64,000 nucleotides of DNA from Flavobacterium sp. 102 (GTDB lineage: Bacteria > Bacteroidota > Bacteroidia > Flavobacteriales > Flavobacteriaceae), in assembly GCF_003634615.1 (NCBI RefSeq), contig NZ_RBKX01000001.1, positions 1,488,001 through 1,552,000 on the forward strand. Reading direction: 5' to 3'. The notes under the pieces were generated by a model that did not search any database, had not been told where the DNA came from, and saw only the letters and a list, made by a program, of their open reading frames with translations. The position numbers and the translations under genes were made by a program. This document shows, in pieces, positions 7,784-44,526 of the stretch; the first letter of the stretch is position 1; each line of letters opens with the position of its first letter.

Positions 7784-7808
7784 TTGTGGGCGATGAGGGA
7801 TTCGAACC
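7784..7808 (-). repeat. Left attachment site copy (tRNA-Val 3' fragment)
   Basis: 25 nt identical to 44,502-44,526, covering the last 22 nt of tRNA-Val (part of the T arm, the acceptor 3' strand and discriminator) plus 3 nt downstream. The match stops at both sides (T/C before, G/C after). Only the 3' part of the tRNA is present, so this is not a working tRNA gene. Confidence 0.9.
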
Positions 7809-14798: not shown

Positions 14799-14934
14799 TA
14801 TTATAGGATTAAGTTATTTTACTCATTTTTTCTTGAGTTCTCCAAGGGTTTCCGCTAACTTATTTATAAGCGAATAAATATACAATTATTCAACAACACC
14901 AATGGAAAAATTACTCGCTACTGCGGGAACCGAA

Positions 14935-15126
14935 AAAAACAATGCTCGCGATGGAAGCTAACATATCACTCAAGACAGAACCGCAGCGGGAACATTGCTC
15001 AGTATCGTTCCCAATTTACATTCGGAAGATATATTGAAAACGGTTGTATTGGCGGTGATCGGCGCAGTTGTAAGTTTTATGGCTACGCTAATTTTAAAAG
15101 TACTCACGAAAGTGAGAAAGAAATAA
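14935..15126 (+). pseudogene. Frameshifted second copy of the small membrane protein gene
   Basis: Starting with ATGGAAGCTAACAT at 14,952, this closely follows the intact gene at 9,963. A G is lost after the eighth codon (ACAGAACC instead of ACAGGAACC), which throws the frame; the original frame resumes as readable homology through AAGTGAGAAAGAAATAA. Traces of the 3' end of the preceding gene (GCTCGCGATGGAAGC) and the AATCCGG/CCGGATT hairpin are also kept. It shows that the tail of the DUF5675 module is duplicated on either side of the cargo genes. Confidence 0.85.
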
Positions 15127-15164
15127 TCCGGTTTTGACTGGTAACCTTTTCCGGATTTATAAAG

Positions 15165-15194
15165 AAAGCCCACTTTTTGTTAAGTGGGCTTTTG
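15165..15194. terminator. Hairpin terminator between pseudogene and GHKL gene
   Basis: AAAGCCCACTT and AAGTGGGCTTT arms around a short T-rich loop. T-runs on the plus side and A-rich sequence on the other suit termination of the pseudogene transcript and of the minus-strand GHKL gene ending at 15,219. Confidence 0.75.
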
Positions 15195-15218
15195 TTATTT
15201 AGTATAATTCGCGTTGAT

Positions 15219-17399: not shown

Positions 17400-17432
17400 A
17401 AAATAAAGAGGCTAAAGCCTCTTTATTTTTTT
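17400..17432 (-). terminator. Terminator of the XRE gene
   Basis: A perfect palindrome AATAAAGAGGCT/AGCCTCTTTATT at 17,402-17,427, flanked by A/T runs, overlapping the stop of the XRE gene (17,423). It suggests the regulator transcript ends before the GHKL ATPase gene. Confidence 0.75.
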
Positions 17433-17800
17433 CTTTCGGCTTCTAATAGCCTTTCATAAAGCTTTTTATTTTCTTCGTAAGCCTCAATTAATTTATCTAA
17501 TGGGTTGAAAGTGCAATGGTGTCCGAATGCCCCACTACTATGACTAAAATCATTATCATAGATGTTATTGAAATAATTTATCACTGCATCTTCAGAGAAG
17601 TTTTTAATAGCTTCAGGTGTAACACCTAGTGCCTTAGCTACCTCAATCAATTTTTCTTCATCAATAGTCTCGCTATTTTCCATCATTGAAATTGCCTGCT
17701 GGTTTGTTCCCATTGCTTGGGCGAGCGCTTCCTGTTTCATATCACGTAATTCGCGGATGCGGCTAATTTTTCTGCCTATGTGGTTTTTTGTTGGTGTCAT
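17423..17800 (-). CDS. XRE-family HTH regulator, 125 residues
   Basis: The N-terminal Cro/CI-type HTH reads GRKISRIRELRDMKQEALAQ, then QQAISMMENSETIDEEKLIEVAKALG. The C-terminal tail (about 70-125) is acidic then helical (LDKLIEAYEENKKLYERLLEAE), a probable dimerisation helix. It is divergent from the NTase-HEPN gene, with a 157-nt shared intergenic region, and upstream of the GHKL gene, so it could regulate either or both. Confidence 0.85.
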   Translation of the reverse strand: MTPTKNHIGRKISRIRELRDMKQEALAQAMGTNQQAISMMENSETIDEEKLIEVAKALGVTPEAIKNFSEDAVINYFNNIYDNDFSHSSGAFGHHCTFNPLDKLIEAYEENKKLYERLLEAERKK

Positions 17801-17956
17801 AATTCAAAAGTAATAAATGTGTTTGGAACGCTGTAAATGTAAGATACGTGTAGCATACAGAACAAAATGATACGGTACAGAAAACAGTCTTTCTTACTTG
17901 CAGTGATTAACAAAAATACAATTTTTCAGATATGTTTCACTTCAAAATTAAGAATT

Positions 17957-19654: not shown

Positions 19655-19657
19655 CTG

Positions 19658-19996
19658 ATGGAAGATAAAATAAAAACAATCGAAGAATTAAAAGATCTCG
19701 CGGCGCATTCCTTTCATGTTGTAAAGCCCTCAAAGAGCCGTAAGGGAAAAGGGACGGTGAATATTCCGGTAAACAGTTATGCGGAACTGAGTTGGTATAT
19801 TATAGATGTGCTAAAGGTATCGGTGGCCGCGCTCGAAGCCGATAGCGAAGGCGTCGGCAATGTAAGGAACATTCCTTGCGCTGTAAGCGGGGTTCTTGAA
19901 AAAATAATCGAGATTATTCCATTGGAAGAAATGGACCTCTTGGATAAAATCCGTGAAATGGTGTCAGATGATGATCAAGAGGAAAAGCAAACTTAA
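19658..19996 (+). CDS. Small helical partner of the NTase-HEPN module (element copy)
   Basis: 112 residues, starting 3 nt after the NTase-HEPN stop. The core YAELSWYIIDVLKVSVAALEA, then SGVLEKIIEIIPLEEMDLLDKI, matches both small genes at 6,214 and 6,622. The tail is short and acidic. Its stop overlaps the stop of the convergent gene at 19,993. Predicted interaction partner of the upstream protein; no named domain recognised. Confidence 0.7.
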   Translation: MEDKIKTIEELKDLAAHSFHVVKPSKSRKGKGTVNIPVNSYAELSWYIIDVLKVSVAALEADSEGVGNVRNIPCAVSGVLEKIIEIIPLEEMDLLDKIREMVSDDDQEEKQT

Positions 19997-20415
19997 AGCC
20001 TGGTATATGCATGCAAAATCACCGCGCGCATTTCCTTTATTAAGTCGATGTTTTTACAAAGTTCTTTTTCCTTTTCTTCTAACAGACTTAATGCCCGGAC
20101 CTTTCTAATGTGCTGGGCGTAGCTGTTTTCTAACGCCTCGCTTTTGGCGACGAACTGTGGCTTAAATTCGTATAGCCTTAAAAATAATACGACGGAGCCA
20201 ACCAGATAATAACGCCAAAATTTCGCTTGCCATAGGCTGTATGCAAGCCAGTAGTGATTTTCTCTTTCCTCTTCGTTTAGAAACTCCAAAACAAAGCAAT
20301 TAGGGCACGATTGCTCTAACGGCTTACCGCTATTGGCACCTTTAGATAGGATAAAGAAATATGGTTTATCATATCGATTTTTTGGGTTGTGTGTCCTGAT
20401 GTTGATTTTCTGCAT
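19993..20415 (-). CDS. DUF6943-like hypothetical protein
   Basis: 140 residues from ATG 20,415 (MQKINIRTHNPKNRYDKPYF); the upstream ATG at 20,478 would add a low-complexity Phe/Ser-rich leader. The motif FFILSKGANSGKPLEQSCPN, followed by CF, is characteristic of a family widespread in Bacteroidota mobile elements. The C-terminal half is helical, with EKEKELCKNIDLIKEMRAVI. Function unknown; useful as a marker of element DNA. Confidence 0.65.
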   Translation of the reverse strand: MQKINIRTHNPKNRYDKPYFFILSKGANSGKPLEQSCPNCFVLEFLNEEERENHYWLAYSLWQAKFWRYYLVGSVVLFLRLYEFKPQFVAKSEALENSYAQHIRKVRALSLLEEKEKELCKNIDLIKEMRAVILHAYTRL

Positions 20416-20768
20416 GGCTTCGATATTTAAATTTGACTGAACTTTTTCAAAAGAAAAAAATGAAAAAAAGAAAGTCATTCCCGAAGCGGAGATTTCAAAT
20501 AAGTGCGGTTTTTAAAATAAAAATACTACCCGACTTTTAGCAGGAGACGTTGTATGCGATAAGATATTTAAACTTTAGCTGATGTTAATTCGTGACCGGG
20601 ATTTGAGGGTGGAGATTTTTGTTTTAAACCCGTAGGGCTTGAACCGAACGTTTTGAAATTGCAGCTTAACTTCCCTTTCTTTTATTTGTTTTTTGAAAGA
20701 GGGTCGTCCGGTTTACGTCCGGTTACGCGATGTTTCTGGGGCAATCTAACACCCCCGAGCACCGCAGC

Positions 20769-21316: not shown

Positions 21317-23605
21317 TTAATACCCAGGCTTTTTGAGAGGCTGTATATCTTCAAGACTATTTTCAACACCCTGTTCTCGATATTTTGAAGTCATACTGAG
21401 TTGGACAATGTCTCTTTTTTTCTTCCAATAGATTATTGCTAAAAAAGCTATAGTTACCTGAACTTTAATATCTTCGCCAGAATCATTTTGAATCTCACCC
21501 CAAGAATCTTTAATTTTCATATTATCTTCTGTATTGATATCAATTATAGAAGCATATAATTTTAGATTTTCGTCTATAAGCTTCAATTGTCCATCTGAAA
21601 CTACTTCGTCGCTCAACGAACGATGTTCAATACTCGGCAAGTCTGATTTATTAAGAATAAAAAGTAAATCTGTTACACGGTGTTCAGATGAAGGTATATG
21701 TACAACCTTAGTAGTGTAATTCACTTCTAATAATTGTCGTAATTCATACCCAATATTAACGGCTATTATTACATAGTCGGTAGTCCCTGCTATTAATTTT
21801 TCGATTCCTTTGAGAATTAGTTCTTTACTTAGCAGAAATCTACGAGTTCGAGAAACGAAAAAAGAATTAGGTATATATTTTCGAATACTACTCGCGACAA
21901 TACTTTTAGCAAATATTGAATCATAGTTTAAATGTGGAATATCATTATCAGTAAAAGCGGATTTTGTCATTAAGTTCTGGCCACCTGTAACCGTCAACTT
22001 TAAATCATTGTCCTTTTCGGCGTCATCAAGCGGTATAAAGATTTGATCATAATCTTTAAAAGCCGAAGTTATAATGTCTTTGGTTGAATCTCGAAAATGT
22101 TGAAGTTTCTCCTCTGATAAATTAGCATTTAATTTCTGTTCTCCAATTTCTCCAATGATTTTTGATTTAAGATTGGATATGAAATCTCGAAAATCTTGTT
22201 CTTTTTCCAATGCAACTGTTGCAAAATGCAGATCTTCTAGCAACTCTTCGTTTTTCAAAACGTGATTTAAGCATTTTTCGAAAAAAGAAACACTATCCAG
22301 CCAGTTTTTTAATTCTGTTACCTTTTGTGGTAAATTAGGCAATGATGTGAAGTCATGAGATACGTAAAACGGTTGCAATGTAAACTGTCTTATGAATAAT
22401 AATGCTATGTAGCTGCAAATCCAATAATTGACGTCACGTCTATTTCCTAAATTGTCTAATCCAGGGAAAGGATATTTAAGATCTAATGGATGCTTTCTAT
22501 GTCTAAATTCATTTCTAAATTCTTCAAACCACGTGAAAATTGCGGTCATACCTTCAGGGAGCAAAACATATTTTGGAGGTAGTGACTGTGAATAATTAAA
22601 AATGTACTTTAAAGTTTTATATTGTTTTTTATAAAGTAATAGGCCACCCAGAGCATAATTAAATTCTAGAAATTGTTCACGTTCTTTCTGCCGTTTTTTT
22701 ACTTCAGGGTCATTAATTATCTCGCTGCCTTCGGGATTGTATTCAGGGTATAAAAACTTTAGTTGAAAGTCGAAATATTGGTTCGCTGTCGCCCAATACA
22801 TCCGTAAGTATTTATCGTTTGATGAAATCATATAAAGATCGTCCCATAAAATACGATAAGTCTCTTTGGAAATAGTAATTTCTTCAAAATCCTCGCCTAA
22901 TAGCCATGTACCACTTACAGCACGATGTTCAATAGCGAGAAGTTTTTTATTTTCTGTAATTGTGAGTGTATAATTTAATTTGTTAATCAGATGATATAGA
23001 TCAGAAGGATAAATTAAAGGTTGTGAATGGTCATGATTCCTTCGTATTTCAGAAAATACCTCAGAATAAAACTCTAACAAAGTTTCTTGTAAATGCTCAT
23101 CTTGTTTGTCAACAGCATAAAAGGTAAGTTCGTTTATAGTTTTAAGGTAATAGGGATTGTTTGATGTTTTCTTTGAATCCAGATCATGTTTAGCAATCAA
23201 GTATTTTAATATCGTTGTTGACTTTCCATTATAAAGCACAATCTTATCCAGCCATATGAAAAACATTACGGTTAAAGATGAAGTAAGAAATAAAATTATA
23301 CTTTCTGCGGAATTATTGATTACAATGTTATTCCAATCAAACCAAGGTTGAAAATTGAAAATAATCAGGAAGAAAGAAATAATTGTCACATATAGGGTTA
23401 ACTTGAAGAATGATAAGTTCAAATTAGTAAATACAATTTTAATTGATTTTTGAGGAAACTCTTCACCAAATAAATCTGGCAAATAGGTAGAATCGTATTT
23501 GTCACCTATACTTGAGATTTTGTCTACTATGATTGGATAAGCTATTCCAAGAATAGCAATATCAATAGCAACACAGATTTCAACAATATTGTTTAACATA
23601 TTCAA
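21317..23605 (-). CDS. Large membrane-anchored protein at the end of the DISARM-like operon
   Basis: 762 residues. Three hydrophobic segments at about 8-30, 68-90 and 100-125 anchor a roughly 630-residue cytoplasmic part that I do not recognise. That part has tetratricopeptide-like helical stretches and a C-terminal alpha/beta region (TTDYVIIAVNIGYELRQLL). There is no HxKx4D motif, so it is not the PLD nuclease DrmC that closes typical DISARM operons. It follows drmB by 39 nt on the same strand and is the last gene. Possibly a membrane effector or localisation factor of the system. A separate adjacent gene is the alternative. Confidence 0.6.
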   Translation of the reverse strand: MNMLNNIVEICVAIDIAILGIAYPIIVDKISSIGDKYDSTYLPDLFGEEFPQKSIKIVFTNLNLSFFKLTLYVTIISFFLIIFNFQPWFDWNNIVINNSAESIILFLTSSLTVMFFIWLDKIVLYNGKSTTILKYLIAKHDLDSKKTSNNPYYLKTINELTFYAVDKQDEHLQETLLEFYSEVFSEIRRNHDHSQPLIYPSDLYHLINKLNYTLTITENKKLLAIEHRAVSGTWLLGEDFEEITISKETYRILWDDLYMISSNDKYLRMYWATANQYFDFQLKFLYPEYNPEGSEIINDPEVKKRQKEREQFLEFNYALGGLLLYKKQYKTLKYIFNYSQSLPPKYVLLPEGMTAIFTWFEEFRNEFRHRKHPLDLKYPFPGLDNLGNRRDVNYWICSYIALLFIRQFTLQPFYVSHDFTSLPNLPQKVTELKNWLDSVSFFEKCLNHVLKNEELLEDLHFATVALEKEQDFRDFISNLKSKIIGEIGEQKLNANLSEEKLQHFRDSTKDIITSAFKDYDQIFIPLDDAEKDNDLKLTVTGGQNLMTKSAFTDNDIPHLNYDSIFAKSIVASSIRKYIPNSFFVSRTRRFLLSKELILKGIEKLIAGTTDYVIIAVNIGYELRQLLEVNYTTKVVHIPSSEHRVTDLLFILNKSDLPSIEHRSLSDEVVSDGQLKLIDENLKLYASIIDINTEDNMKIKDSWGEIQNDSGEDIKVQVTIAFLAIIYWKKKRDIVQLSMTSKYREQGVENSLEDIQPLKKPGY

Positions 23606-23644
23606 ATTATTTTCCTATAAATTTTCTTCCAATTTTTTTTTCTT

Positions 23645-25606
23645 TTAATTAAAGAAACCAATCGATGGATTTTCAAAAGTACCTATAATTGAAGCTCGAT
23701 CAAGTAGCATGTTGAATTCTTCACAGCTTGTTTCAGGAACTATGGAGCAATTATGACAAGCTGAACCATTAACATTATCTGGACCTTGCCCACTTGACTG
23801 ACCAATATCTGAGCATACTGGATCAGCCGAACACCATCGTGCGTCTTCAATAGAATCTTTAACCAGTTTCCCTAAATTGTTAGCTTTTCCTTGTCTTACT
23901 AAACCGCCTAAAGAACCTTCCGAATCTCCGGATGAAGTGTAAATAAGTATACCATTCATCCTGTTGTCATCGTCATCATTAAAATATAATCTTTCCCTTA
24001 GTGATGATGAACCATATCCACAATGAAAACAAAGTTTCTTTATCAATAGGTGTGTGAAAGTGTGCATGACAATAAACGAAGCATTAACTTTTTTAAGATT
24101 CTCTGTAGGTCTTCTTTTCAACATTGCTCCATGATATCGATCAATTATATTTGTAAACGAATCACCTTGACTTTCTAGCCATTTGTCAATTACATCATCC
24201 CTGAATTTTAAAAAAATACCTTCGCCAAATACTTCTGTTGCCGGTAGCCAATTTACATTTTCATTGGACAATTCACTAATGTCAGTTTTATTTCCAGGGT
24301 CTATCCGAGCAAAACTTCTAAATACTCTCGTTTCTTTTAACTTTTCAATGAGTACAACACATTCGAAATATTTTTCTAAAAAATCTTTTTCCGAATACTC
24401 ATCAAACTTTTTCTTAATCGCTTTAAAGTCTGCATTTTCGGAATTCCTACCTTCTAAAATGTACTGATATTCTTCCAAACGTAATCCTTCCTCAGAGGAA
24501 AAATTATTAATCTCGTCTAAAATTTCATTCTCTAATATTTCTGCTATAACGCCAGCTACTAATTCATCCTTTGAAATTAAATTGTTTTTTATTACTGCTT
24601 CAGATGAAAGTATGGCGGGAAGAATTATTGTTCCTTTGTCAAGATTATAATACTTTTTTAACTCATCTCTTCCTTTTTCCTCAATTACCTTTACGACATA
24701 CTCATTGGCTTGAGATGACACTTGTGGTAAGTAAATTGCCGATACAATATCAGAAAAATGAACATTCGAGGCACCTCTTATTAAAACTTGTAAATGTTTC
24801 TTTCCGGCACATGGCTTCGCGTCAATAATTCCTTCTACGCCTAACCATGGACGATGTCCTTTGCAATACTGTCCTAATGGGTTATTGTCATTTGGTTCAT
24901 CCTCAGTAAATTTTTTGTCTTCTTCCTTGTCTAATCCTATTCTAGCTAATGCGCTATCAAAAACTTTATCGCCATTTTTCCTAACATTCATTAAACCTGC
25001 AAGTGTCCTTTTTTCACCACATGAACATTTAATAAGTATACTTCCCAAGTCACCCGAGCCTGAAAGTGAATGATATGATAAATTATGATTTTTATCGTCA
25101 TTTGGTAATGACCCATCATGAACCCATTCTTTAAAAGGAACATCTTGAATATGACCATTACTACAAGCTGCAACAAATCTAACAGGAATCATTTTAGATT
25201 TAAATTTATTGCCTGATTTACCACATATATCACATTCTATTTTTTCTTCCGCAAAAGTAAGTTCAACCTCCCTCATACTGCCGCATAAATGATTCGTACA
25301 ATGGTGCCACCGTGGAAATCGCACGACAGGGATTGTTAGGAAATTATTCTTAATTCCAGATGTATGATATGAAAATGGCTTAATAAAATATTCGACACCT
25401 AGTACTTTTTGTAAACGAGGCTCAATTATTCTTAACGCGACCTCATCAATATTTTGATAACCCGCTTGAATTTTTCTTTGCTGAATTTTTTCATCCCATA
25501 AATTCAACCCACATACCATAACTGATACCTCCTTAGGAAAGTTGATAATTTGTCCAATTCCAAATGGGGAAAGGAGTTGGCTACTTCTTACGCTTTTATT
25601 GGCCAT
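23645..25606 (-). CDS. drmB: DrmB-like protein (DUF1998 domain) of a DISARM system
   Basis: 653 residues from ATG 25,606 (MANKSVRSSQLLSPFGIGQI); this start overlaps the end of drmA by 11 nt and removes an unlikely 18-residue leader. DrmB features are visible: the FGIGQIINFP beginning, a first Cys/His cluster (HHCTNHLC...CDICG, about 100-130), a second (CSCGEKRT), and the C-terminal CHNCSIVPETSCEEFNMLLDR block of the DUF1998 type. In DISARM, DrmA and DrmB form the core complex that recognises and blocks incoming DNA. The family call is strong. Confidence 0.9.
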   Translation of the reverse strand: MANKSVRSSQLLSPFGIGQIINFPKEVSVMVCGLNLWDEKIQQRKIQAGYQNIDEVALRIIEPRLQKVLGVEYFIKPFSYHTSGIKNNFLTIPVVRFPRWHHCTNHLCGSMREVELTFAEEKIECDICGKSGNKFKSKMIPVRFVAACSNGHIQDVPFKEWVHDGSLPNDDKNHNLSYHSLSGSGDLGSILIKCSCGEKRTLAGLMNVRKNGDKVFDSALARIGLDKEEDKKFTEDEPNDNNPLGQYCKGHRPWLGVEGIIDAKPCAGKKHLQVLIRGASNVHFSDIVSAIYLPQVSSQANEYVVKVIEEKGRDELKKYYNLDKGTIILPAILSSEAVIKNNLISKDELVAGVIAEILENEILDEINNFSSEEGLRLEEYQYILEGRNSENADFKAIKKKFDEYSEKDFLEKYFECVVLIEKLKETRVFRSFARIDPGNKTDISELSNENVNWLPATEVFGEGIFLKFRDDVIDKWLESQGDSFTNIIDRYHGAMLKRRPTENLKKVNASFIVMHTFTHLLIKKLCFHCGYGSSSLRERLYFNDDDDNRMNGILIYTSSGDSEGSLGGLVRQGKANNLGKLVKDSIEDARWCSADPVCSDIGQSSGQGPDNVNGSACHNCSIVPETSCEEFNMLLDRASIIGTFENPSIGFFN

Positions 25607-28600
25607 CTTGATTACTATTATTTGAATATATACTAAGAACAGATTCTGTATCAACTCCACGCATGGAGGTTGAAGTAGGTAAAGATCTTTTTTCCCTAAT
25701 TATTTCTTCACGTACTTCCGCACTACTGGCATACATAAGCGGGAAATATCCATCATCATTTAAAATTTTAAAATTACCCGCATCGCCATAGGATTGAAAA
25801 CCTTTTCTCCAAAACCGAATCCTCTTATTTAATAAATCAATAGTATTATCTACTTCTTCCGGGTCAATAATCTCACACCTATCTTTTATTATTTTAGAAA
25901 TAATTGCTAATAAACCGTCAAATTCGTCATTAATTAACGGCGTTTCTTTCATTTTTCCACTTGAAAAATTTCTTATTAGCGCAATAAAAACCGCATGCAG
26001 CCCTTTTTCTCTAGCATTAATAGAAAATGGCGTAACTGAAGTTGGCTCAACATTTGAATAAATTCGGCTATGGTAGCCTTGGAATTGCTCATATTGAGAT
26101 TTGTCTCTTGGTTTGGATGGACTATATAATGTAAAAATGATTCCTGGTCCCATAGGTACATCTCTTCCTACACGAGAACTAGCTTGAATATATTCAGCTG
26201 TTGTTTTTGGTTGACCATGGATAAACATCAACCCCAAGCGTGAAATATCGACACCAGTAGCCACCATATTTGTGGCTAAACAAATATCTAATGCTTCGTT
26301 CTTGACATTAGTAAATGTTGCTTCTAATTTCTTGAGGGTAGATGGTATTTCAGAGGAACTAATTCTACTAGTTAATTCTTCAATTTTGTTTATATATCTT
26401 TTTTTATCGTTGGTTCTTAAATCACGATTTTGAATTTGGCCAAGTCTCTCTCTAATATCTCCATAAACTAAAGAAGATGCTCCTCCAAGTTCTCTGATAC
26501 TATTAAAATAACCTAAAAGCGTCCAGTAATAATTTATATTTATTGAATCATTAATTTCAGCTAATTCTTTTACTTTTTGTAAAACAGCAGCATACGTTCT
26601 TACGATAGATGTTTGGGCGGATGGAAAACCAGAGGCAAGTATACCTATATACTTTCTCCCAGGATACTTTTGACTACCGGAAGAATCGGTTTCATTTATT
26701 GATTTTTCCTCAGAGAACCAAGTATCCCCAAAAGTTAAGCCTTGAGCTGGAAAAATGCTTAATTGTTCTTTACTTTTAATACCGTATATGCCTTTTACCT
26801 GTTCAAATGCTCTACTAATAGTTGCAGACGACGCGATAATTTTAGGAGGAATTAAGTCCTCTTCATCACCTGTAATAAATGGAGGTTCCGTTTTTTTATA
26901 ATCATTACAAAGAGTTTGAACCATTGTTTCGTATAAACCGACCATTGTCCCCAAAGGGCCAGCTATTAAATGTAATTCATCCTGAATAATTAATTCCGGC
27001 GGGCAAATTCGTGTCCAATCGCCGTTATCATTAATATTTCTAAATCCAAACAATTTTCCGGCGTCTGATTTCCATGGAATCATTGCGAATTTATCGACTG
27101 TTCCTAACAATAATGTGGGTGGAGTATCATAAATCAACTCGTCTACTACTTGAAGCGGTAATGGATTAATATTGTATTCGCAATTCTTATTCTCGCATCT
27201 GAACATTACCTTACCATCCTTACCATCTTCTTTATGCAGTCCTTTAACTTTCTCGACTTTATCAAATCTACCTATATTTTCTACTTTGCCTATTTGTGAT
27301 CCGCAGCAAGGACATTTCATTACAACAAAATTATATTCTGCCTTCGGATCAGTTTTCAACAAATTTAATTGGGCTTTTGCATCATCATTTTTATTTGGGG
27401 TTGAAGTGCCGCCAACCCAAAGACCGATTGAAATTGGTTCGTCTCCAATTTCTTTAAGATTTTCTATCCTTATTAAATCACAAGCGCAGATTAATGAAGC
27501 CGCTCTTTCGTACTGCTGTGTGGTTAACAACCGTAGTGTGTAACGCATCAACACTGTGGTGCCGCCATAAAATTCCCAATTCCATTTAGCCTTTCCTTTA
27601 ATTCTTCTGTAAAAAATGCTAAATGCTGTTAAACCCAAATATGCTTCAGTCTTACCACCACCCGTAGGAAACCAAATTAAGTCAACTATCCTTCTTTCCT
27701 CAGAAGTAGGGTGTAAGATAGATTCAAGATTCAGCAAAATAAATGCAAGTTGAAATGGTCGCCACCTCCCATTATAGTTACTTGATGAATGAAAGTCTTC
27801 TATAGATGGGAAAATTTGCTCGTTGTAATCCCCATTAATCCCCTCAATACTTAATTGCTGATTTTCAGAACTTCCGGTTTTAATCCATTTTCTAATTTTT
27901 GTTTTTGAACGTTGTTGTTGCCATATCATTGCTCGATTCATCCACCTAAAACATTTCACGACATCAGAATTTTCATCCGAATCAATTAATATTTGAATGC
28001 CTTTTTGAATTCTCTTTAATGATTTTTGGCATTTAATAATATTTAATTTTGCTGCTTCTCGATAATTTTCTAATTCTGGTGAATTATCAGCTTCGTTTTT
28101 TATATCCTCAATCCAACCGGAATATTTCTCATGTAATATTTTCAAACTATTCTTTGCATCATTCCAATTACCTTTATCAGATAGTTGCAGCATACTAAGA
28201 TCTACATGTTGAGTCGGCGCTACTTGGGGGAGATCATAAACTGGAATAACCGAAGTACTTATTTTACTAACAGTTTCATAACCAATATTATTATTTGCTG
28301 TGGTTTCCCAGACTACCGATGTACCATGTCCAATAGAAAAGACTCTTTTTTTCCTATATAGCAGATTCAGTTCTTTTTCTTCGTCAGTATCAGAGGCTAA
28401 ATTTTTTTCTTTATATGGAGCAATCAGATTATTATTATCAGTGGTTAATATTAATTCATTTTGGTATAAAATTTTGTTTCCATTTGCGACATCATCGGTT
28501 TCAGCTTTAAGTTCATTAATAAGGACAAAAGTGTAGGTGTGGAAATTTTCTTCACTATCCTTTAAGGTAGTTCTGTTAAACACCCTTAATTTTAACCAAA

Positions 28601-29225
28601 CATCATTTTTTTCATTACATTTTATTGTAACATCATGTGATTTTTTGCCATCTTTAAATAACGAATTAATTTCAAATAAGATAGGTTCGCTAACAATTGG
28701 TCGTCTAACCCAATAATCCGAATCAATTGTTTCACCATCTTTGTTTTTGGCAATTACTATAACACTATTCTTGTCAATTTGCTTTTTAGGCCTTTTGTTT
28801 ACACCTTTTTCATAGTAGGCAGAATTTATTTTAAGGCTGACTGAATCATGGGTTTCTTTAGAATTAAATCTTACGGTAAATCCCATTGCGGAAGGAAGGT
28901 ATTGATTAGCTAAACCAACAGGTTCCTCGTCACTACTACCATTCTCAGTGCTGAAACTATTTTGTGAATCCTTTTCTTTATCAGGGCTATCATCTTCATC
29001 ATTATCGTTGAAATCTGTATCATTAATGTCACCTGAATCTGTATTATCATTATTCATAGATTGTTGTGGATATAGCATACCACCGCCATATCTTGATTTA
29101 GGAGAACCATGGATGCTAGCTAATAAAAGTTCTTCGCCTGTTTGCTCATCACGATAATTTGGATTAAGAGATGGCCCAATTATTTCTTTTTTTACTGCAT
29201 CTAATATTTCTTCTCTTATATCCAT
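25596..29225 (-). CDS. drmA: DrmA-like superfamily 2 helicase of a DISARM system
   Basis: 1,209 residues. The N-terminal 500 residues are a family-specific region with a Ser/Asp/Glu-rich linker near 60-105. Walker A lies in WFPTGGGKTEAYLG near 520, a four-Cys zinc site in MKCPCCGSQ...CENKNCEY near 640-680, and the DEAD-like box IIQDELHLIAG near 750. The C-terminal helicase half is NMVATGVDISRLGLMFIHGQ, then EYIQASSRVGRD, near 990-1,025. Size, order and partner (drmB immediately downstream) match DrmA, the DISARM helicase. Starts 1 nt after the upstream gene stops. Confidence 0.92.
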   Translation of the reverse strand: MDIREEILDAVKKEIIGPSLNPNYRDEQTGEELLLASIHGSPKSRYGGGMLYPQQSMNNDNTDSGDINDTDFNDNDEDDSPDKEKDSQNSFSTENGSSDEEPVGLANQYLPSAMGFTVRFNSKETHDSVSLKINSAYYEKGVNKRPKKQIDKNSVIVIAKNKDGETIDSDYWVRRPIVSEPILFEINSLFKDGKKSHDVTIKCNEKNDVWLKLRVFNRTTLKDSEENFHTYTFVLINELKAETDDVANGNKILYQNELILTTDNNNLIAPYKEKNLASDTDEEKELNLLYRKKRVFSIGHGTSVVWETTANNNIGYETVSKISTSVIPVYDLPQVAPTQHVDLSMLQLSDKGNWNDAKNSLKILHEKYSGWIEDIKNEADNSPELENYREAAKLNIIKCQKSLKRIQKGIQILIDSDENSDVVKCFRWMNRAMIWQQQRSKTKIRKWIKTGSSENQQLSIEGINGDYNEQIFPSIEDFHSSSNYNGRWRPFQLAFILLNLESILHPTSEERRIVDLIWFPTGGGKTEAYLGLTAFSIFYRRIKGKAKWNWEFYGGTTVLMRYTLRLLTTQQYERAASLICACDLIRIENLKEIGDEPISIGLWVGGTSTPNKNDDAKAQLNLLKTDPKAEYNFVVMKCPCCGSQIGKVENIGRFDKVEKVKGLHKEDGKDGKVMFRCENKNCEYNINPLPLQVVDELIYDTPPTLLLGTVDKFAMIPWKSDAGKLFGFRNINDNGDWTRICPPELIIQDELHLIAGPLGTMVGLYETMVQTLCNDYKKTEPPFITGDEEDLIPPKIIASSATISRAFEQVKGIYGIKSKEQLSIFPAQGLTFGDTWFSEEKSINETDSSGSQKYPGRKYIGILASGFPSAQTSIVRTYAAVLQKVKELAEINDSININYYWTLLGYFNSIRELGGASSLVYGDIRERLGQIQNRDLRTNDKKRYINKIEELTSRISSSEIPSTLKKLEATFTNVKNEALDICLATNMVATGVDISRLGLMFIHGQPKTTAEYIQASSRVGRDVPMGPGIIFTLYSPSKPRDKSQYEQFQGYHSRIYSNVEPTSVTPFSINAREKGLHAVFIALIRNFSSGKMKETPLINDEFDGLLAIISKIIKDRCEIIDPEEVDNTIDLLNKRIRFWRKGFQSYGDAGNFKILNDDGYFPLMYASSAEVREEIIREKRSLPTSTSMRGVDTESVLSIYSNNSNQDGQ

Positions 29226-29226
29226 G

Positions 29227-30957
29227 TTAATTCAATTTTGAGTAATTATTGACAATGAGTTTATTAAAGTTTTCCTCTTGTGATTTATTCAACACAATAT
29301 ATAATTCAAGTCTTGGTCGCGATATTCCGATATAAAGTAATCTTTGTGCAGATTCAGAAATTATTTCTTCAAAGTCAAAAAGAATTATAATGGTATTTTC
29401 TAATCCTTTATATGCTTGAATGGTACTGACTTCAACTCCCTGGTTAATTAAATTATTTATTATATCAGAATCACATATAATTGAATTTTCAAACCGCTTC
29501 GGAGAGAGTAGTGTAATTTTATTATACGGGATACTTTTGTTAATGAGGTCTAATAATATTTCTTCAATAACTTTAGTTTGTAGGTTAAATGAAGGGAATT
29601 TGCATGTAACTGTATTACCTTCAAATCCATTTAATGTAAATTTAGGTATATCTACTCCCGTCAATAGGGTATTTTGTGAAGCTATTTTTTTTGTATTACG
29701 ACAGTTTATTTTTAAAGGAGGAAATTTAGTGAAATATGTTTTGTCGCTAAGTAATGTAAATATTTCTTCGGGATTATTTAGATATATAGCTTGATTAGAA
29801 AAGTCACCAAATAAGACCCATCGCCCATTTTTTATTCCACCTTTAAGTATGGTGTCAAAAATTTCAACAAAATATGGAGAGATTAAATCTTGGGCTTCGT
29901 CTAAAATAAGAATATCGAATTTCTCTAAGTCAGTATCTTCATTATTTGATAAAAATTCAATAATTAAATCTTCTGAGTAATATTTTTGCTTTTCCTTTTC
30001 AGATTCTGGAGGAATTGAATTTGTGTATTTAGTTAAAAAGCTATGAAGCGTTCCTACGTAAAAATTACTCTCATTGTTTTCGAAATTTTTACTGATGTAG
30101 TTGAATAATTTATCGCCTAATTTATTATTAAAACAGAATAAGCCGACTTTATCTTTCTTTTCAATTTTTATTCGCGAAATTTCTAGAGCCATTAATGTTT
30201 TTCCCGTTCCGGCTGAACCTTCAATTATACATCTATCATTGTAATTGACAAAATCCAATAAATCAAATTGTTCTTTAGTATATTCTTCAATTAGATTTTC
30301 TCTGTCATTAATTTTATTTATTTCAGAATAATTTACATCAAAATCACCTCTGAGAATTTTTAGTAAAGTTTTACAATCTTCAAGTGTTGGCCTTGACATA
30401 TTGATATCATACCAATATTTTCCTTTATATTCATTATGCCAGCCCTTGCTTAATGCTGATAGGTAATAGCTGATCGGGATACTCAATCCTTGTTTTGTTA
30501 GAATTTGCCATGAATGCCCTTCTGTCCCGAAGTCAATAAATTCATCCATACTTGTAAATGCCAACCCAGTTCCCCATACGATTTTGGAAAATCTTTCATG
30601 GAGATCCTTTTTGTGTTTGATTTTTTCGAGGACATATTTTTTGATCGACTGCAATGTCCCATCAACCTGTGCAAATGGACTTTTGGTATTTGTTGTAGTA
30701 ATCCCTTTTCTATTTGTAAATGACCAAGTTCCATTCTTTCTAGATACGCCACCATGCTTGACTTCAATAGCGAAAAAACCTTCGTTTGGTGCCAATACTA
30801 AGAAATCAAGTTCCCCAGATTTATTTTTTATATGATGGTTAGTAAACAATGAATGAAGTATATGCATGTTTTTACATGATTTATCATTTTTAAATTTTAG
30901 GTAAATTATTTTCTCACCACTAGACTCAAAGCCCTCAATGTTATCTGGAATTAGCAT
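29227..30957 (-). CDS. NERD-nuclease-domain UvrD-like helicase in the DISARM operon
   Basis: 576 residues. The N-terminal NERD domain (about 20-130) has GELDFLVL...FFAIEVKHGG, the D...ExK core of a nuclease-related fold. The superfamily 1 helicase follows: Walker A EGSAGTGKTLMAL near 248, Walker B ILILDEAQDL near 350, late motif IQAYKGLENTIIILFDFE and LLYIGISRPRLELYIV. It overlaps the drmE-like gene by 7 nt and abuts drmA, so it belongs to the operon. It is not one of the standard DISARM subunits. It may replace the nuclease function that DrmC normally brings; that is inference. Confidence 0.8.
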   Translation of the reverse strand: MLIPDNIEGFESSGEKIIYLKFKNDKSCKNMHILHSLFTNHHIKNKSGELDFLVLAPNEGFFAIEVKHGGVSRKNGTWSFTNRKGITTTNTKSPFAQVDGTLQSIKKYVLEKIKHKKDLHERFSKIVWGTGLAFTSMDEFIDFGTEGHSWQILTKQGLSIPISYYLSALSKGWHNEYKGKYWYDINMSRPTLEDCKTLLKILRGDFDVNYSEINKINDRENLIEEYTKEQFDLLDFVNYNDRCIIEGSAGTGKTLMALEISRIKIEKKDKVGLFCFNNKLGDKLFNYISKNFENNESNFYVGTLHSFLTKYTNSIPPESEKEKQKYYSEDLIIEFLSNNEDTDLEKFDILILDEAQDLISPYFVEIFDTILKGGIKNGRWVLFGDFSNQAIYLNNPEEIFTLLSDKTYFTKFPPLKINCRNTKKIASQNTLLTGVDIPKFTLNGFEGNTVTCKFPSFNLQTKVIEEILLDLINKSIPYNKITLLSPKRFENSIICDSDIINNLINQGVEVSTIQAYKGLENTIIILFDFEEIISESAQRLLYIGISRPRLELYIVLNKSQEENFNKLIVNNYSKLN

Positions 30958-33626
30958 AATATTTTTCGGGTGTTATGGTAATCAATTTCTATTTCATTTT
31001 TGATTAAAGAAGATATGGTTCTGGTTTCAACTTTAATTTCATTTCCATGAATATTAACTGAAAATTTATCATTCGTTAAATTTTTAGATGTAAGCTGATT
31101 AATGATGTTTTTTTTAATATTTGAACTTAAACTGATCGTATAGGAATTTACCTCTCTAAAAGCATTTTCAAGTTCATTTAGTTTTTGATCAAAATTCTCA
31201 ACCTTTGCTGTGAGAAGTATAATTTTAAGATTTTGCGTACGCGGACAAATAAATTCATCATCGTATAGCCATCTTTGAATACTTGATTTAATTGGATTTC
31301 CATCCATTAATTGATATTCTTTCTTCGTTGCAAAAAATAATTGTTCAAGGGTATCAAGATTTTTGTTTGATGTAGTAAATAGTTTTTCTAGTTCAACTTT
31401 CCAACTTTCTAACTTCTCAAAACAGGACTTAATGTTTAGATCATTTTTTGAAATTTCTCTATTTGCGGCTCTATCTTTTCTATATTTAAAAATTTTATAC
31501 CCTATGTTTAGGTCATTAAATCTTGTTTCACAAATGGTGGTCTTTTCTATATTATTTTCGGTTTGTGTTAATACCGTACTTTGCTTTGGCAAAAACATGA
31601 AACTGCCATCGTCAAAATTTATAATATCACATTTAACTGTAAAGGAGTTCTCTTCGTGATTAGGAATGCCATAACCCTTATACTTAAATGTGTGCAAATA
31701 TTCTAAATTTGCTTCCTGCACATTTTCAACTTGTATTGAATTATCTACTGTTAGGAATGAATTGATTTCATCTTCAAAATTCATTTCGGTTTTTAATAAA
31801 TATTCATCCTTTAATGGCGTAATTTCAGCGATATTATCACTAAAATAACTCGCGGTAATTCTTCTTTTGAGATAACCGGTCGTTAACGAGGCCTCGTTCG
31901 GCCAACAAATTATTTTCACATCCGGAACAAAATCAAGACAAACTGAATTTAATAAATATTTTCCCGAATATTCGTTATATGGGTATCCAGTGAATACTAT
32001 ACTTTCAGAACTTGAGGTCGGTACATTAACTTTTATTCTCTCAAGTGGGATGTAATTTTTTTTAAGGGCAGATGTAGTTAATACATTTGAAAAAATATTA
32101 CTATTTGGATTATAGGATTTTGTGTTCTCTTTAAATTCGGAAGCCAATTGAATACCTTTTTCAATTTCCCTAGCAACGTCTTGGGTAATGCCATTATTTT
32201 TAACAGCATCAAAGACTTCTTTAAACTCTAATATCAGGTCTGTAATTTGCTCCGTTGACCTCATTGAATTTTTAAGCGCATACAAAGAGGGATAAAAGTA
32301 GCTGTAAAAAGCTTTTTGCAAAGTTTCAAAATTATCTAATTCTTTTACTAGTTTAAGAAGCCTCGGAGTCAAAATATCTAGCTCATTTTTTGACGTTATG
32401 TTGATTTCAATTCTTTGTTTAGCATATCTTTTGCATTGGAGCCAAAGTTCATCATCTATATAATTTATATCTGATGAATATTGTATTAGTTTCCCAATCT
32501 TATTTTTATTCCAATTTATTCTAAAGTATTCCGGATTGTTGGAGAATAATCTCTTGTAAAAGTCAATTTCATCCGTATTTTCAACTATCCGATTTGAAAT
32601 GAAAATAACTGGGACACCCTTTTCCAAAAACCCTTCAATAGTATCTTCATATTCATAAATTTGGCTTATATCATTAATGATAACTGCTCGTAATTTTATT
32701 GGAAGTTCATCTTGGATTCCAGGATATTTTTTTTCCAAGAATTTAAGTTGAATTATTTCGCCTTCGAATTCCAAAATAAAAGCGTTAAAGTCGCTATCAA
32801 ATTCTTGAGAAATCTTTTGTTCGTCAAGTAACAATTTTATCAGTTCTTCTATTTTTAATTTAGCTTCCTCTATTTGAATAATTTCTGCTAATTCAAGCAA
32901 AAATTCTTTAAACTCATTAAACTGTTTTTCCTTATCACTATTGAAGATGCTAACGTAAGATTTCAAATCTGGACTTACAATTAAATTCTTTTTTAAAGGA
33001 AATATTTTTGACAAAGGTTCGTCATATATCTTTATCTTATTTAACAAGTCAATAAATGTACTTGTGTTTCCTCTACCACTAACTAATAGTACTTTAGAGT
33101 CGAGATTATTTTGATTAATTGAAACAGATTCATTTGGCTCTAATATTTTAGAAATAGAATTTCTTTTGGTTTTAGAGTCTTTTAAATTTTTAGTATATTT
33201 TTTCCATAAACTTAAAGTCCTTTGAGAAGGAACTTTACTTATTTGAGAGCGAAGCGATTTTTTTATAGGAATTCCTCCTTGATCTTTAAACTTTAAATAG
33301 ACTTTATCTTCAATTACTTTCTCAATTTCAGCAATGCAATCGAAAATTTTTATTTTATCACCTTTTTTTAGCTTTATTCCGTCAACTTCATTATCAATGA
33401 AATCTTCATAAAAAAAGTTGGTTAAAATTGAAATTGCAGTCCATAAAGAGGCTTTCTTTTTTTCAGGAAAGCATAAGAATAGTGGTTTTTTAGGTAATTT
33501 ATTATTATTAATCAAATTACAATATTGCAAAGCAATTCCTGATGTAATCTTCATAATAGGGCTAAACTTATTATCACCCAAATTAATAAAGTATTTTTTA
33601 TCAAAGGAATCTAGTAGCTCTCTCAT
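30951..33626 (-). CDS. drmE: DrmE-like protein of a class 2 DISARM system
   Basis: 891 residues, no Walker A or other catalytic motif recognised. The start MRELLDSFDKKYFINLGDNK overlaps the methyltransferase stop by 4 nt (ATGA). An alternating helix/strand domain (about 50-160), a helical middle and a long C-terminal beta-rich region are visible. The call rests on size and position between a cytosine methyltransferase and the drmAB genes, the place of DrmE in class 2 DISARM, and on the PLFLCFPEKKKASLWTAISI opening, which fits a degenerate nucleotide-binding or helicase-like fold. A new subunit is possible. Confidence 0.6.
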   Translation of the reverse strand: MRELLDSFDKKYFINLGDNKFSPIMKITSGIALQYCNLINNNKLPKKPLFLCFPEKKKASLWTAISILTNFFYEDFIDNEVDGIKLKKGDKIKIFDCIAEIEKVIEDKVYLKFKDQGGIPIKKSLRSQISKVPSQRTLSLWKKYTKNLKDSKTKRNSISKILEPNESVSINQNNLDSKVLLVSGRGNTSTFIDLLNKIKIYDEPLSKIFPLKKNLIVSPDLKSYVSIFNSDKEKQFNEFKEFLLELAEIIQIEEAKLKIEELIKLLLDEQKISQEFDSDFNAFILEFEGEIIQLKFLEKKYPGIQDELPIKLRAVIINDISQIYEYEDTIEGFLEKGVPVIFISNRIVENTDEIDFYKRLFSNNPEYFRINWNKNKIGKLIQYSSDINYIDDELWLQCKRYAKQRIEINITSKNELDILTPRLLKLVKELDNFETLQKAFYSYFYPSLYALKNSMRSTEQITDLILEFKEVFDAVKNNGITQDVAREIEKGIQLASEFKENTKSYNPNSNIFSNVLTTSALKKNYIPLERIKVNVPTSSSESIVFTGYPYNEYSGKYLLNSVCLDFVPDVKIICWPNEASLTTGYLKRRITASYFSDNIAEITPLKDEYLLKTEMNFEDEINSFLTVDNSIQVENVQEANLEYLHTFKYKGYGIPNHEENSFTVKCDIINFDDGSFMFLPKQSTVLTQTENNIEKTTICETRFNDLNIGYKIFKYRKDRAANREISKNDLNIKSCFEKLESWKVELEKLFTTSNKNLDTLEQLFFATKKEYQLMDGNPIKSSIQRWLYDDEFICPRTQNLKIILLTAKVENFDQKLNELENAFREVNSYTISLSSNIKKNIINQLTSKNLTNDKFSVNIHGNEIKVETRTISSLIKNEIEIDYHNTRKILC

Positions 33627-35224
33627 TTTTTATCTAAATTAAAAATAGTTGTAACTATTTCAGCAATCTGATATGCAAGGAAAGGAGGTACTGCATTACC
33701 TACTTGATGATATTGAGATGTTCGAGGGCCACAAAATAAATAATTGTCGGGAAAAGTTTGAATTCGTGCTGCTTCTCTTACTGTAAGACTTCTGCATTGA
33801 TTGGAATCATAATGGATAAAATAGTGGCCATCTTTAGAAATATGACTAGTTATTGTAGTAGCGGCACTATCAGGCATTTGAACTCGAAATCTATCTGCAA
33901 ATTTCCCGCTTGTTGCGCTCGCATGGTCTGGCATTAATTCACTACTGTGTGTTTGATAATCCTTTAGTCTAGGAAATCGTTTATGTTTTTCAGCATAAGT
34001 ACTGGCAAATAAATATCGCTTCAAGTCTTCAACTAAATGTGTCCTTGTTTCATGGTTGCAAACACCTTTTAAATTATCATCTACAAACCATTCCCTTAAA
34101 GGGTTTTCTGCGCAAGGTGTCTTATATTCAATATATTCTGAACCTAGCCCATGTGATGCTGCTTCAATATTGTTAAAAGGAATGTTACTTTCAAGACCCT
34201 TCCAAGTGGTGATTTCTTTTTTAAAACTATTAATTATATTTTGCCAGTTTTGTTTTGAATCAATTTCATTTTTATATTCCCGTTTCTTAACGCCATTAAT
34301 GATTTCACTTGAAATAATTGATCGTCCTATTCCGCTTCTTAATTTCGGTAAATCTCCGATAACACTTTTCAAGTCGGTTTCTTCAACAACCATTTTTAAG
34401 ATTTCAGGCTTGATGTTTATATCCTCTCGAACTCCAAGTAATATAACTCTATGCCTTTTTTGCGGGATTTTAAACTTTTCAGATTGTATTAGATAATCTC
34501 TATTATCCTTATATTTGGGATTGCCAAACTCATCAAAACTTTCAGGCTCATTAGAAAGGGAATAGATTTTATATTTTGGAGCATTAGTTTCTTTGAAAAC
34601 TGAAGAAGGATTTCTTAAGTCACTCAAAATCCAGTCAAATACCTTTTCATCATTAACTTTAGCAGACAAGAGACCTTTAACGTTTTCCATAACAAAAACG
34701 GTAGGATGGTGAACAGCTATGATTCTTAAATATTCTTTATAAAGATATACTCTATGATCGTCATCGTCAATTCCTCCAACTCTTGATCTTCCCGCCAGAG
34801 AAAATGCTTGACATGGTGGCCCCCCAATTAAAAGCCATTCTGTATTACCACTTAAAGATTTAATTATCTTCTCATCAATCGTTGAAGATGGATAAGATTC
34901 ATTGCCCAACTCAGCTTTCCAAGCTTCTTTTTTTGCCTCCTGCGATTCTCTAGGATATTTCTCAAATAATGTTATAATTAAATTGTCTCTTTTCTGTAAA
35001 TCATTTTCCTTTAATACATCATAATATTCATTTGGAACTTTTCCTTTTTTAAATTTTCGAAAAAAGCTTCTTAATTCAAGGGTTTTATGCGCATCGTTAT
35101 CTTTTTCGATCGATAACTTTATATCAAAAACCCTCTCTCCATTTCTTAAAACGGAAGAAAAACCTTCACCTAAACCACCCGGCCCTGCAAATAAATCAAT
35201 TATTGGAATATTGTTATTGGTCAT
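33623..35224 (-). CDS. drmMII: DNA cytosine-5 methyltransferase, DISARM DrmMII-like
   Basis: 534 residues from MTNNNIPIIDLFAGPGGLGE (ATG 35,224; an alternative in-frame ATG lies at 35,242). The C5 methyltransferase motifs are in order: DLFAGPGG (I), GGPPCQAFS with the catalytic Cys near 137 (IV), MENVKGLL near 178 (VI), PQKRHRVILLG near 250 (VIII), and QVGNAVPP near the end (X). It modifies cytosine in host DNA to mark self; the target sequence cannot be read from the protein. First gene of the operon, with a 13-bp palindrome about 100 nt upstream. Confidence 0.9.
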   Translation of the reverse strand: MTNNNIPIIDLFAGPGGLGEGFSSVLRNGERVFDIKLSIEKDNDAHKTLELRSFFRKFKKGKVPNEYYDVLKENDLQKRDNLIITLFEKYPRESQEAKKEAWKAELGNESYPSSTIDEKIIKSLSGNTEWLLIGGPPCQAFSLAGRSRVGGIDDDDHRVYLYKEYLRIIAVHHPTVFVMENVKGLLSAKVNDEKVFDWILSDLRNPSSVFKETNAPKYKIYSLSNEPESFDEFGNPKYKDNRDYLIQSEKFKIPQKRHRVILLGVREDINIKPEILKMVVEETDLKSVIGDLPKLRSGIGRSIISSEIINGVKKREYKNEIDSKQNWQNIINSFKKEITTWKGLESNIPFNNIEAASHGLGSEYIEYKTPCAENPLREWFVDDNLKGVCNHETRTHLVEDLKRYLFASTYAEKHKRFPRLKDYQTHSSELMPDHASATSGKFADRFRVQMPDSAATTITSHISKDGHYFIHYDSNQCRSLTVREAARIQTFPDNYLFCGPRTSQYHQVGNAVPPFLAYQIAEIVTTIFNLDKK

Positions 35225-35319
35225 ATTTAAATTAGAAATCATTTACTAATTCTTTAGAAAGAATAGCCAGATTATTGTATGAACTTAAACTGTAAATCTA
35301 ATTTTTTCTAGCAAATAAA

Positions 35320-42987: not shown

Positions 42988-44229
42988 TTATCCGTTTGAG
43001 GCGAATGACGTATTAGGTATTGCAAACTTTGCTCTTAGGTTCTGCATATCTTCACTTACTTTCTTATCAAGAACTCTAGCGTAATGCTGAGTGGTCTGAA
43101 TATTTTTATGACCTAGCATTTTACTAACACTTTCGATAGGAACTCCATTAGTCAAAGTTACAGAGGTCGCAAAAGTGTGTCGGGCCATGTGAAAAGTAAT
43201 CTCCTTTGTGATTTGACATAAGTCACCAATTTCTTTTAAATACCCATTCATTTTCTGATTGCTTAATACTGGTAAAACTCTATCTTCATTTAAACACTTT
43301 GGATGGTTAGCATACTTTTTAATAAGTTCTTCAGGAATTGGCAACAATGGAATTTTGGATTTTGTGTCAGTCTTTTGACGGTTTTTAAATATCCATTTTT
43401 GTCCATCGATACCAATTCCTATATGATCCCGGTTAAGTCCTTTGACATCGACGTAAGCAAGACCAGTAAAGCAGCAGAAAATAAAAATGTCCCGCACAAG
43501 TTCCAATCTTGGTGTACGGAATTTCTTTGAGTAAATGTCTTTGATTTCTTCCTCGGTTAAAAATTCGGTCTCAACTTCTTTCATTTTTCCATCATACTTG
43601 ACGAATGGGTCTTTTTCTAGCCAGTCATTATTGAGACAAATCTTTATAATCTTCCTGAAGTTTCGCACGTATTTAACAGCTGTGTTGTTATTGCAGTTTT
43701 TTTCACTTCTTAAATAGAAATCAAATTCAGTGATCATCGCAAAGTCGATTTTAGAAATGGCAATATCCTTAATATCGTATTTCCAAATTAGGAATTCTTC
43801 AAGATGTTTTAGTGAAATCTTAAAACGTTCAAGCGTTCCAGGTGCGTAGCCATTTCCAAGCAGCCCTTTGATCTTATCGTTATGCGCTTGGTAAATTGGA
43901 ATAAGCATTCTGTCGCGATCTGTTTGGCCAAAGAGGTGCTTCCTAAAGTTGTCAATATTTACAGATTCCCGTTTATGCGTTAGCATGATCTCGATGTTTG
44001 TGACGTGTGCTTTCATCGAATCGAGATAGCTATTTATTGAACGGGCTTCTTCGGAGTTGCCTTTCATTTTCGACAGGTCTTCAGACCATTTGGATTTTTC
44101 AATGAGTTTTTTGGAACTGAATTCCAGACGTTCGCCATCTACGGTAAGTCGGACATAAAGAGGTAATAGTCCTGTGGCAACAGCTTTTTTACTTCTTAAG
44201 TAAAAATGCAAAGTGATTTTTTCTTTCAT
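42988..44229 (-). CDS. int: Tyrosine recombinase (integrase) of the element, IntDOT-like
   Basis: 413 residues. An N-terminal arm-type domain (KEKITLHFYLRSKKAVATGL) and SAM-like core-binding domain precede the catalytic domain. Visible catalytic elements are HMARHTFA (HxxR near 346), LGHKNIQTTQHYA with the nucleophile Tyr near 383, and a Lys-rich strand KNRQKTDTKSKIPL. The usual first Arg in the TGLR box is replaced by Ala (TGLAYVDV), as in CTnDOT-type integrases that find an Arg elsewhere. Located next to tRNA-Val, its target; inserts or excises the element at the 25-bp repeat. Confidence 0.92.
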   Translation of the reverse strand: MKEKITLHFYLRSKKAVATGLLPLYVRLTVDGERLEFSSKKLIEKSKWSEDLSKMKGNSEEARSINSYLDSMKAHVTNIEIMLTHKRESVNIDNFRKHLFGQTDRDRMLIPIYQAHNDKIKGLLGNGYAPGTLERFKISLKHLEEFLIWKYDIKDIAISKIDFAMITEFDFYLRSEKNCNNNTAVKYVRNFRKIIKICLNNDWLEKDPFVKYDGKMKEVETEFLTEEEIKDIYSKKFRTPRLELVRDIFIFCCFTGLAYVDVKGLNRDHIGIGIDGQKWIFKNRQKTDTKSKIPLLPIPEELIKKYANHPKCLNEDRVLPVLSNQKMNGYLKEIGDLCQITKEITFHMARHTFATSVTLTNGVPIESVSKMLGHKNIQTTQHYARVLDKKVSEDMQNLRAKFAIPNTSFASNG

Positions 44230-44501: not shown

Positions 44502-44526
44502 TTGTGGGCGATGAGGGATTCGAACC
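44502..44526 (-). repeat. Right attachment site copy (within tRNA-Val)
   Basis: Same 25 nt as 7,784-7,808, lying in the intact tRNA gene, so the tRNA is regenerated after integration. Confidence 0.9.

Follow-up and report, generated by a model that had tools for sequence, protein, structure and literature searches.

The 64,000-nucleotide stretch of the Flavobacterium sp. 102 genome analysed here (contig NZ_RBKX01000001.1, positions 1,488,001 to 1,552,000; hereafter the window) carries a five-gene minus-strand operon with the order drmMII-drmE-NERD/UvrD-drmA-drmB. Judging from sequence comparisons, this operon probably (about 0.62) encodes an anti-phage system of the defence island system associated with restriction-modification (DISARM) family, in a lineage apart from classes 1 and 2, in which a NERD nuclease fused to a UvrD helicase replaces the phospholipase D (PLD) protein DrmC. 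Whether the lineage amounts to a third, cross-phylum class of DISARM, with NERD-UvrD as the executing nuclease of DrmAB and with DrmC and NERD-UvrD as alternative solutions, is in our estimate an evenly balanced question. Where one conserved nuclease-helicase replaces DrmC, the step at which DISARM destroys phage DNA would become testable with point mutants. The genes of the operon, and the gene that follows them, are these:

33623..35242, minus strand: drmMII-like C5-cytosine methyltransferase, 539 aa (PADLOC DrmMII 323 bits, 6.1e-97; Pfam DNA_methylase 1.7e-46; TIGR00675 3.8e-44)
30951..33626, minus strand: putative DrmE-family protein, 891 aa, a remote match (NF038316 30 bits, 1.6e-7, below the cut-off of 80)
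29227..30957, minus strand: NERD (PD-(D/E)xK) nuclease fused to a UvrD/SF1 helicase, 576 aa (PADLOC, Pfam UvrD-helicase, aligned motif)
25596..29225, minus strand: DrmA (YprA-family) helicase, 1209 aa (NF038325 928 bits, 8.6e-279, cut-off 950; PADLOC DrmA 732 bits)
23645..25660, minus strand: DrmB (DUF1998/MZB), 671-aa open reading frame (ORF) (NF038324 423 bits, 2.4e-126, cut-off 240; Pfam MZB 3.6e-8)
21317..23605, minus strand: 762-aa protein with three N-terminal hydrophobic segments (no family in PADLOC, Pfam or NCBIfam)

An initial annotation, made from the letters of the sequence, had placed six same-strand genes here, and six consecutive minus-strand ORFs are indeed found from 35242 down to 21317, five of which could be named when ten window proteins were scanned with PADLOC, Pfam and NCBIfam; the methyltransferase end given in that annotation, 35224, is an in-frame ATG within the longer ORF. 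The first five genes are coupled, with overlaps of 4 nt and 7 nt, a gap of 1 nt, and a drmA/drmB overlap of 11 nt if drmB, whose ORF opens with GTG at 25660, starts at its probable ATG at 25606, while the 762-residue protein follows some 40 bp further on. Three features expected of DISARM of any class are present, namely a DrmA helicase (just under the NF038325 cut-off), DrmB as a separate gene and a methyltransferase within the operon. The same scans gave no match to DrmD (SNF2-like) or DrmMI among the operon proteins and no PLD family in any of the six, in agreement with the earlier statement that the PLD protein is missing. The five genes occur in identical order in L010, a locus of the survey described below, and in Pseudozobellia thermophila (L034).

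DrmA was searched for in 395 genomes of the phylum, of which 44 matched; 24 weaker matches (helicase core alone, E 3e-6 or weaker) were dropped, leaving 20 strong ones, the window and 19 other loci (L010-L028). A scan of GTDB genomes with the DrmA alignment contributed the best 80 of 590 confirmed loci (L034-L113). Genes were called as mechanical ORFs and labelled with profiles built in this analysis. From the window, the 19 and the 80 loci, 99 gave a DrmA ORF (L090 gave none) and 97 were long enough for a tree; together with eight annotated or canonical loci these made 105 sequences. Window DrmA fell within a group of 52 of the 105 with a support of 0.999, the tree being rooted at its midpoint so that the group is strictly a split, and a fast IQ-TREE analysis of 61 of the 105, among them 30 members of the group, kept these 30 in one cluster (SH-aLRT, an approximate likelihood ratio test, 99.6). 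The two canonical class 2 loci (L120 and L121, from 299 genomes; NF038323 1110 and 1004 bits), with the order drmE-drmA-drmB-drmC-C5-methyltransferase, have DrmA sequences placed with those of class 1 and of loci that carry DrmC, apart from the window group. The description as a variant class 2 DISARM in the initial annotation is too narrow, as the operon differs from a class 2 locus by more than the loss of DrmC. A search of the phage collection gave no match to DrmA.

Within the group of 52, DrmB was labelled in 48 loci, a DrmE-like protein in 44 (>20 bits) and a C5-methyltransferase in 35 (>25 bits). Of the 19 DrmA sequences of the phylum sample that were placed, the window's included, 8 belong to the group, L028 being too short to place. 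A Vsr-like family lies near 20 of the 52 operons, all five tested members being Vsr by Pfam, as expected beside a C5-methyltransferase that would be active. In five loci of the group (L017, L039, L070, L095 and L098) a family of HhH-GPD type also lies close to the operon; Pfam confirmed both members tested, and the family is perhaps a glycosylase partner of the C5-methyltransferase.

The third gene is best matched in PADLOC by RTasNERD-Hel (94 bits, 2.6e-27), followed by C3a187 "NERD+UvrD" (1.3e-18), with Pfam UvrD-helicase at 4e-8. Pfam NERD gave no match to the window copy at E 0.1, and its assignment as a NERD protein is based on PADLOC, the aligned motif and the NCBI names of relatives. 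Of the 52 group loci, 40 carry a NERD-UvrD gene as the immediate upstream neighbour of drmA; 38 copies are full-length, and those of L095 and L098, the latter at a contig end, are partial ORFs covering only helicase positions. All 38 full-length copies agree at the fifteen nuclease and helicase positions examined, which include E15, E49, D51, E65, K67, Q97 and residues of the helicase motifs. In the window protein the Walker lysine of the helicase is K253. In the phylum sample the gene is present in all eight members of the group. By title, the NERD-bearing members, many of them metagenome bins, come from Bacteroidetes, Acidobacteria, Actinobacteria, Alpha-, Beta- and Gammaproteobacteria, Deltaproteobacteria, Myxobacteria, Firmicutes, Nitrospirae, Verrucomicrobia, Dormibacter and Shapirobacteria, these being the phyla to which we take their names to belong. 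Tree distances of NERD-UvrD and DrmA were correlated over 38 loci (r 0.907), a value reached in none of 2000 permutations. When a NERD profile (A2) was run over the 395 phylum genomes, with three candidates scored per genome, 15 matched; the nine genomes above 250 bits all carry their match at DrmA loci, and no match of at least 250 bits was found away from DrmA. As eight of these nine had supplied sequences to the profile, what is informative is the lack of such matches at other places. Three weaker genomes (G111, G161 and G429, 131-134 bits) likewise have their match at DrmA loci, and three others (G100, G116 and G127, 157-227 bits) were not among the DrmA-positive genomes. These observations support NERD-UvrD as a conserved partner of drmAB, and of the earlier expectation that both the NERD helicase and the membrane protein would be conserved with drmAB, it is the part concerning the NERD helicase that has held, in contrast to the membrane protein discussed below.

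DrmC (>50 bits) was labelled in none of the 52 loci inside the DrmA group, as against 8 of the 53 outside it. A profile made from nine DrmC-labelled proteins and a lone PLD protein of the host was run over the 776 ORFs of the 52 loci and retrieved, at E <= 0.001, only L066_13, L038_1 and L038_11. L066_13, itself among the nine sequences that built the profile (31 bits with it), is a 696-aa protein with PLDc_2 by Pfam, encoded on the opposite strand some 6 kb past drmB. L038_1 (1115-3475, 786 aa) and L038_11 (17427-20585, 1052 aa), which flank the NERD-DISARM operon of L038, have PLD-like and helicase-like motifs, an assignment made from the profile and from reading of the motifs. An HKD pattern was too strict to be of use, finding one of six DrmC-labelled proteins, and the PLD calls therefore rest on profiles. 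A DrmC homologue elsewhere in the genome, which the initial annotation had named as evidence that would overturn its interpretation, was also sought: the class I DrmC model NF038319 had no match across the closed 3.8-Mb host genome, this model having matched 10 of 14 control genomes, in one of them above its cut-off. A PLDc_2 search of the host returned polyphosphate kinase and the lone 242-aa PLD protein at 3.07 Mb, which matches NucT- and DpdK-like models, all below their cut-offs, and matches no DrmC model at E 0.01.

The DrmE-like protein of the window had no PADLOC match, and its orthologue in L010 reaches 79.6 bits with NF038316 (1.6e-22, residues 311-894), just short of the cut-off. On profile comparison, the window-type alignment matched six single-chain relatives at 99.4% (E 8.7e-22, 722 columns). 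In much of the DrmA group DrmE takes the form of two adjacent genes; to the first of these the single-chain relatives give a weak match (66.9%, E 5.3e-5), to the second a strong one (100%), and in L017 the second gene is matched by Pfam DrmE_C as well. A model built from eight sequences had a mean predicted local distance difference test score (pLDDT) of 54, and Foldseek against the PDB returned no match at E <= 0.001; the sequence profile found only a designed bundle (E 0.012). A relationship of DrmE to DrmA was considered and rejected, since hhalign found nothing, and a search of the plasmid collection gave no match to window DrmE.

The operon could alternatively be ordinary class 2 DISARM that has lost DrmC, with NERD-UvrD as an auxiliary and with defence falling to DrmAB, which would either block replication or bring in a PLD nuclease encoded on the chromosome, a mechanism suggested for DISARM in general. 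The excerpted text of PMC9142583 describes DrmC as dispensable and often missing, the host does encode the lone PLD protein that might be recruited, and neither an upstream NERD gene nor DrmC is found in 9 of the 52 group loci, all of which fit such a loss. Yet canonical class 2 DrmA branches with class 1 and not with the window group, DrmC was labelled in none of the 52 loci so that its loss is not confined to the window, and the lone PLD protein matches no DrmC model at E 0.01; we therefore regard this explanation as unlikely. Less probable still is a role for NERD-UvrD in host protection, by which it would repair or handle host DNA broken or stalled by DrmAB rather than cut phage DNA. The Vsr-like and HhH-GPD-like families near the operons (20 and 5 of the 52 loci) would suit such a function, but cytosine methylation accounts for the presence of Vsr and glycosylases, and the tight coupling and co-variation of NERD-UvrD with DrmA fit a core role better.

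A third alternative, that the 762-residue protein is a sixth, membrane-linked effector, is very unlikely. The protein had been described as a three-helix membrane protein, and Kyte-Doolittle analysis bears this out, with hydrophobic segments, predicted to be membrane helices, near residues 7-25, 64-82 and 101-119. It is encoded on the same strand after a gap of about 40 bp from drmB, in which no terminator-like site was listed, a scan that was itself uninformative (6 sites against 8.1 in shuffles). Against this, it lies beside drmAB in only 1 of 108 labelled loci, the window itself, which is also the only member of the DrmA group of 52 in which it was seen. A first draw of 59 other genomes gave relatives in 2. 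The phylum draw, in which no more than two candidates per genome were scored, gave them in 5 of 394 other genomes, one of which had also turned up in the first draw, and one further relative is on a Hymenobacter plasmid; a scan of viral_contigs gave none. The neighbourhoods of seven relatives (L007, L008 and L029-L033) were opened, and none contained a match to the DrmA, DrmB, DrmE or NERD profiles. In three of these neighbourhoods there are restriction or Dnd-type genes: a type I restriction subunit in L030, a ResIII/RE_endonuc protein in L031, and in L033 a DUF4007/PAPS-reductase cluster with an integrase, a cluster that we take to be linked to Dnd. The three N-terminal hydrophobic segments are common to the window copy and the six relatives scanned, the L030 copy, split over two ORFs, being left out. 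A single-sequence AlphaFold model (mean pLDDT 33) was worthless. On these gene neighbourhoods the protein was rejected as a DISARM component, and it is probably an independent gene of the island described below. Its relatives without drmAB could possibly be a stand-alone defence gene.

Several observations count against a separate DISARM lineage in which NERD-UvrD takes the place of DrmC. The 80 GTDB loci were chosen by their likeness to window DrmA and many are metagenome bins, and the correlation of NERD-UvrD and DrmA distances partly reflects shared descent. Nine of the 52 group loci (L035, L041, L054, L058, L062, L069, L072, L079 and L115), five of them forming one Bacilli subgroup, have no upstream NERD gene, so that the gene is not indispensable everywhere; three more have nothing upstream of drmA on the contig. 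The pairing is also not unique to the group, since NERD-UvrD proteins occur at DrmAB loci of other branches, and 12 of the 53 loci outside the group have one of at least 180 bits. Its position in other branches can differ: it is placed after drmB in L016, L063, L082, L092, L099 and L118 and, in L012 and L013, precedes a gene of about 830 aa that has no family matches. PLD-domain proteins other than standard DrmC are present within L066 and L038, the model used for the host genome was that of class I DrmC, and the lone host PLD protein could be recruited. Finally, the DrmE assignment is a remote one by sequence: canonical class 2 DrmE matches the single-chain relatives (96.1%) and not the window-type alignment directly (1.8%).

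If the operon is a DISARM lineage with NERD-UvrD in place of DrmC, its C5-methyltransferase would mark host DNA, and DrmAB would load on unmarked DNA ends or single strands and unwind them, much as the excerpts of PMC9142583 describe for Serratia DrmAB, which is recruited to unmodified 5'-overhang DNA and whose ATPase is stimulated by DNA that lacks methylation and is less active on methylated DNA. DrmE may be an accessory or scaffold subunit, this being the weakest step of the scheme. On account of its position, its co-variation with DrmA and its intact catalytic residues, NERD-UvrD is the candidate for a dedicated nuclease, which would translocate on the exposed strand and cut it with its PD-(D/E)xK site, thereby standing in for DrmC; the 762-aa protein would stand outside this mechanism as a separate island gene. 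Of the two effector steps envisaged in the initial annotation, nucleolytic or membrane-linked, the former is plausible, and the latter was set aside since the seven relatives of the membrane protein lie away from drmAB.

The operon resembles class 2 DISARM in its C5-methyltransferase and in having DrmA and DrmB as separate genes, the putative DrmE-family protein being a possible further likeness. It differs in the absence of DrmC, in the presence of NERD-UvrD between drmE and drmA, in its separate DrmA group and in gene order, the methyltransferase being first here and last in L120 and L121. Class 1 (DrmD, DrmMI, DrmA, DrmB and DrmC) has DrmA and DrmB in common with the window, in contrast to DrmD, DrmMI and DrmC, none of which was matched in the operon, and belongs to a different DrmA group. 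Among other systems, TALON also combines a YprA-family helicase with a NERD-type nuclease in one operon and, among the text occurrences seen in the YprA survey PMC12458937, is the only one for which a NERD nuclease is named; from the same excerpts, it has an ARMADA-like YprA and TPR-CSD and TBP genes of its own. The window instead has a DrmA-type helicase and DrmB in separate genes, together with the putative DrmE and the C5-methyltransferase, and no TBP or cold-shock family was found by Pfam among its ten scanned proteins. ARMADA type II, as excerpted from PMC12458937, likewise joins a YprA helicase and a UvrD-type helicase in one operon, its own features being a RelE-like domain on the UvrD helicase and BrxHII-like and PglX-like genes. 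The NERD-helicases of defence-associated reverse transcriptase (DRT) systems provide, through RTasNERD-Hel, the best PADLOC match of window NERD-UvrD, whereas no reverse transcriptase was matched among the ten proteins. NERD-UvrD loci would fall outside the PADLOC type II DISARM rule because, in the portion of PMC9252829 consulted, that rule requires DrmC, and an annotated example locus in Rhodococcus opacus carries generic gene names only. DISARM without DrmC is already in print, PMC9142583 in its excerpts presenting the nuclease step as unsolved; no description of NERD-UvrD DISARM was found among the matches listed in openly licensed literature.

The operon appears to be carried by an integrated element of about 36.7 kb (7784-44526) at tRNA-Val, as indicated by an exact repeat at its two ends, an integrase, an RteC protein and, upstream of the operon, genes for a DnaC-like loader and an HTH_17 protein. 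The 23-bp core of the repeat occurs twice in the window and in none of 100 shuffles. The features that delimit the element are:

44502..44526, strand not assigned: attachment-site copy overlapping the 3' end of tRNA-Val (exact 25-bp repeat)
7784..7808, strand not assigned: second copy of the 25-bp repeat, at the opposite island end (exact repeat)
44504-44579, minus strand: tRNA-Val
42988..44229, minus strand: tyrosine integrase of the island (Pfam Phage_integrase 4.5e-16)

Two further observations were made in the surveyed loci. Eleven actinobacterial drmA operons (L061, L065, L076, L077, L081, L084, L086, L088, L091, L108 and L109), none with a DrmC label, have a UvrD-type helicase of about 640 aa immediately upstream of drmA, and preceding the helicase an unlabelled ORF of 1,580-1,860 aa. 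In L018, from a different genome of the window's genus, the protein encoded at 14434-16506, two genes upstream of drmA, matches an argonaute model weakly (NF052569, 50.8 bits, cut-off 700).

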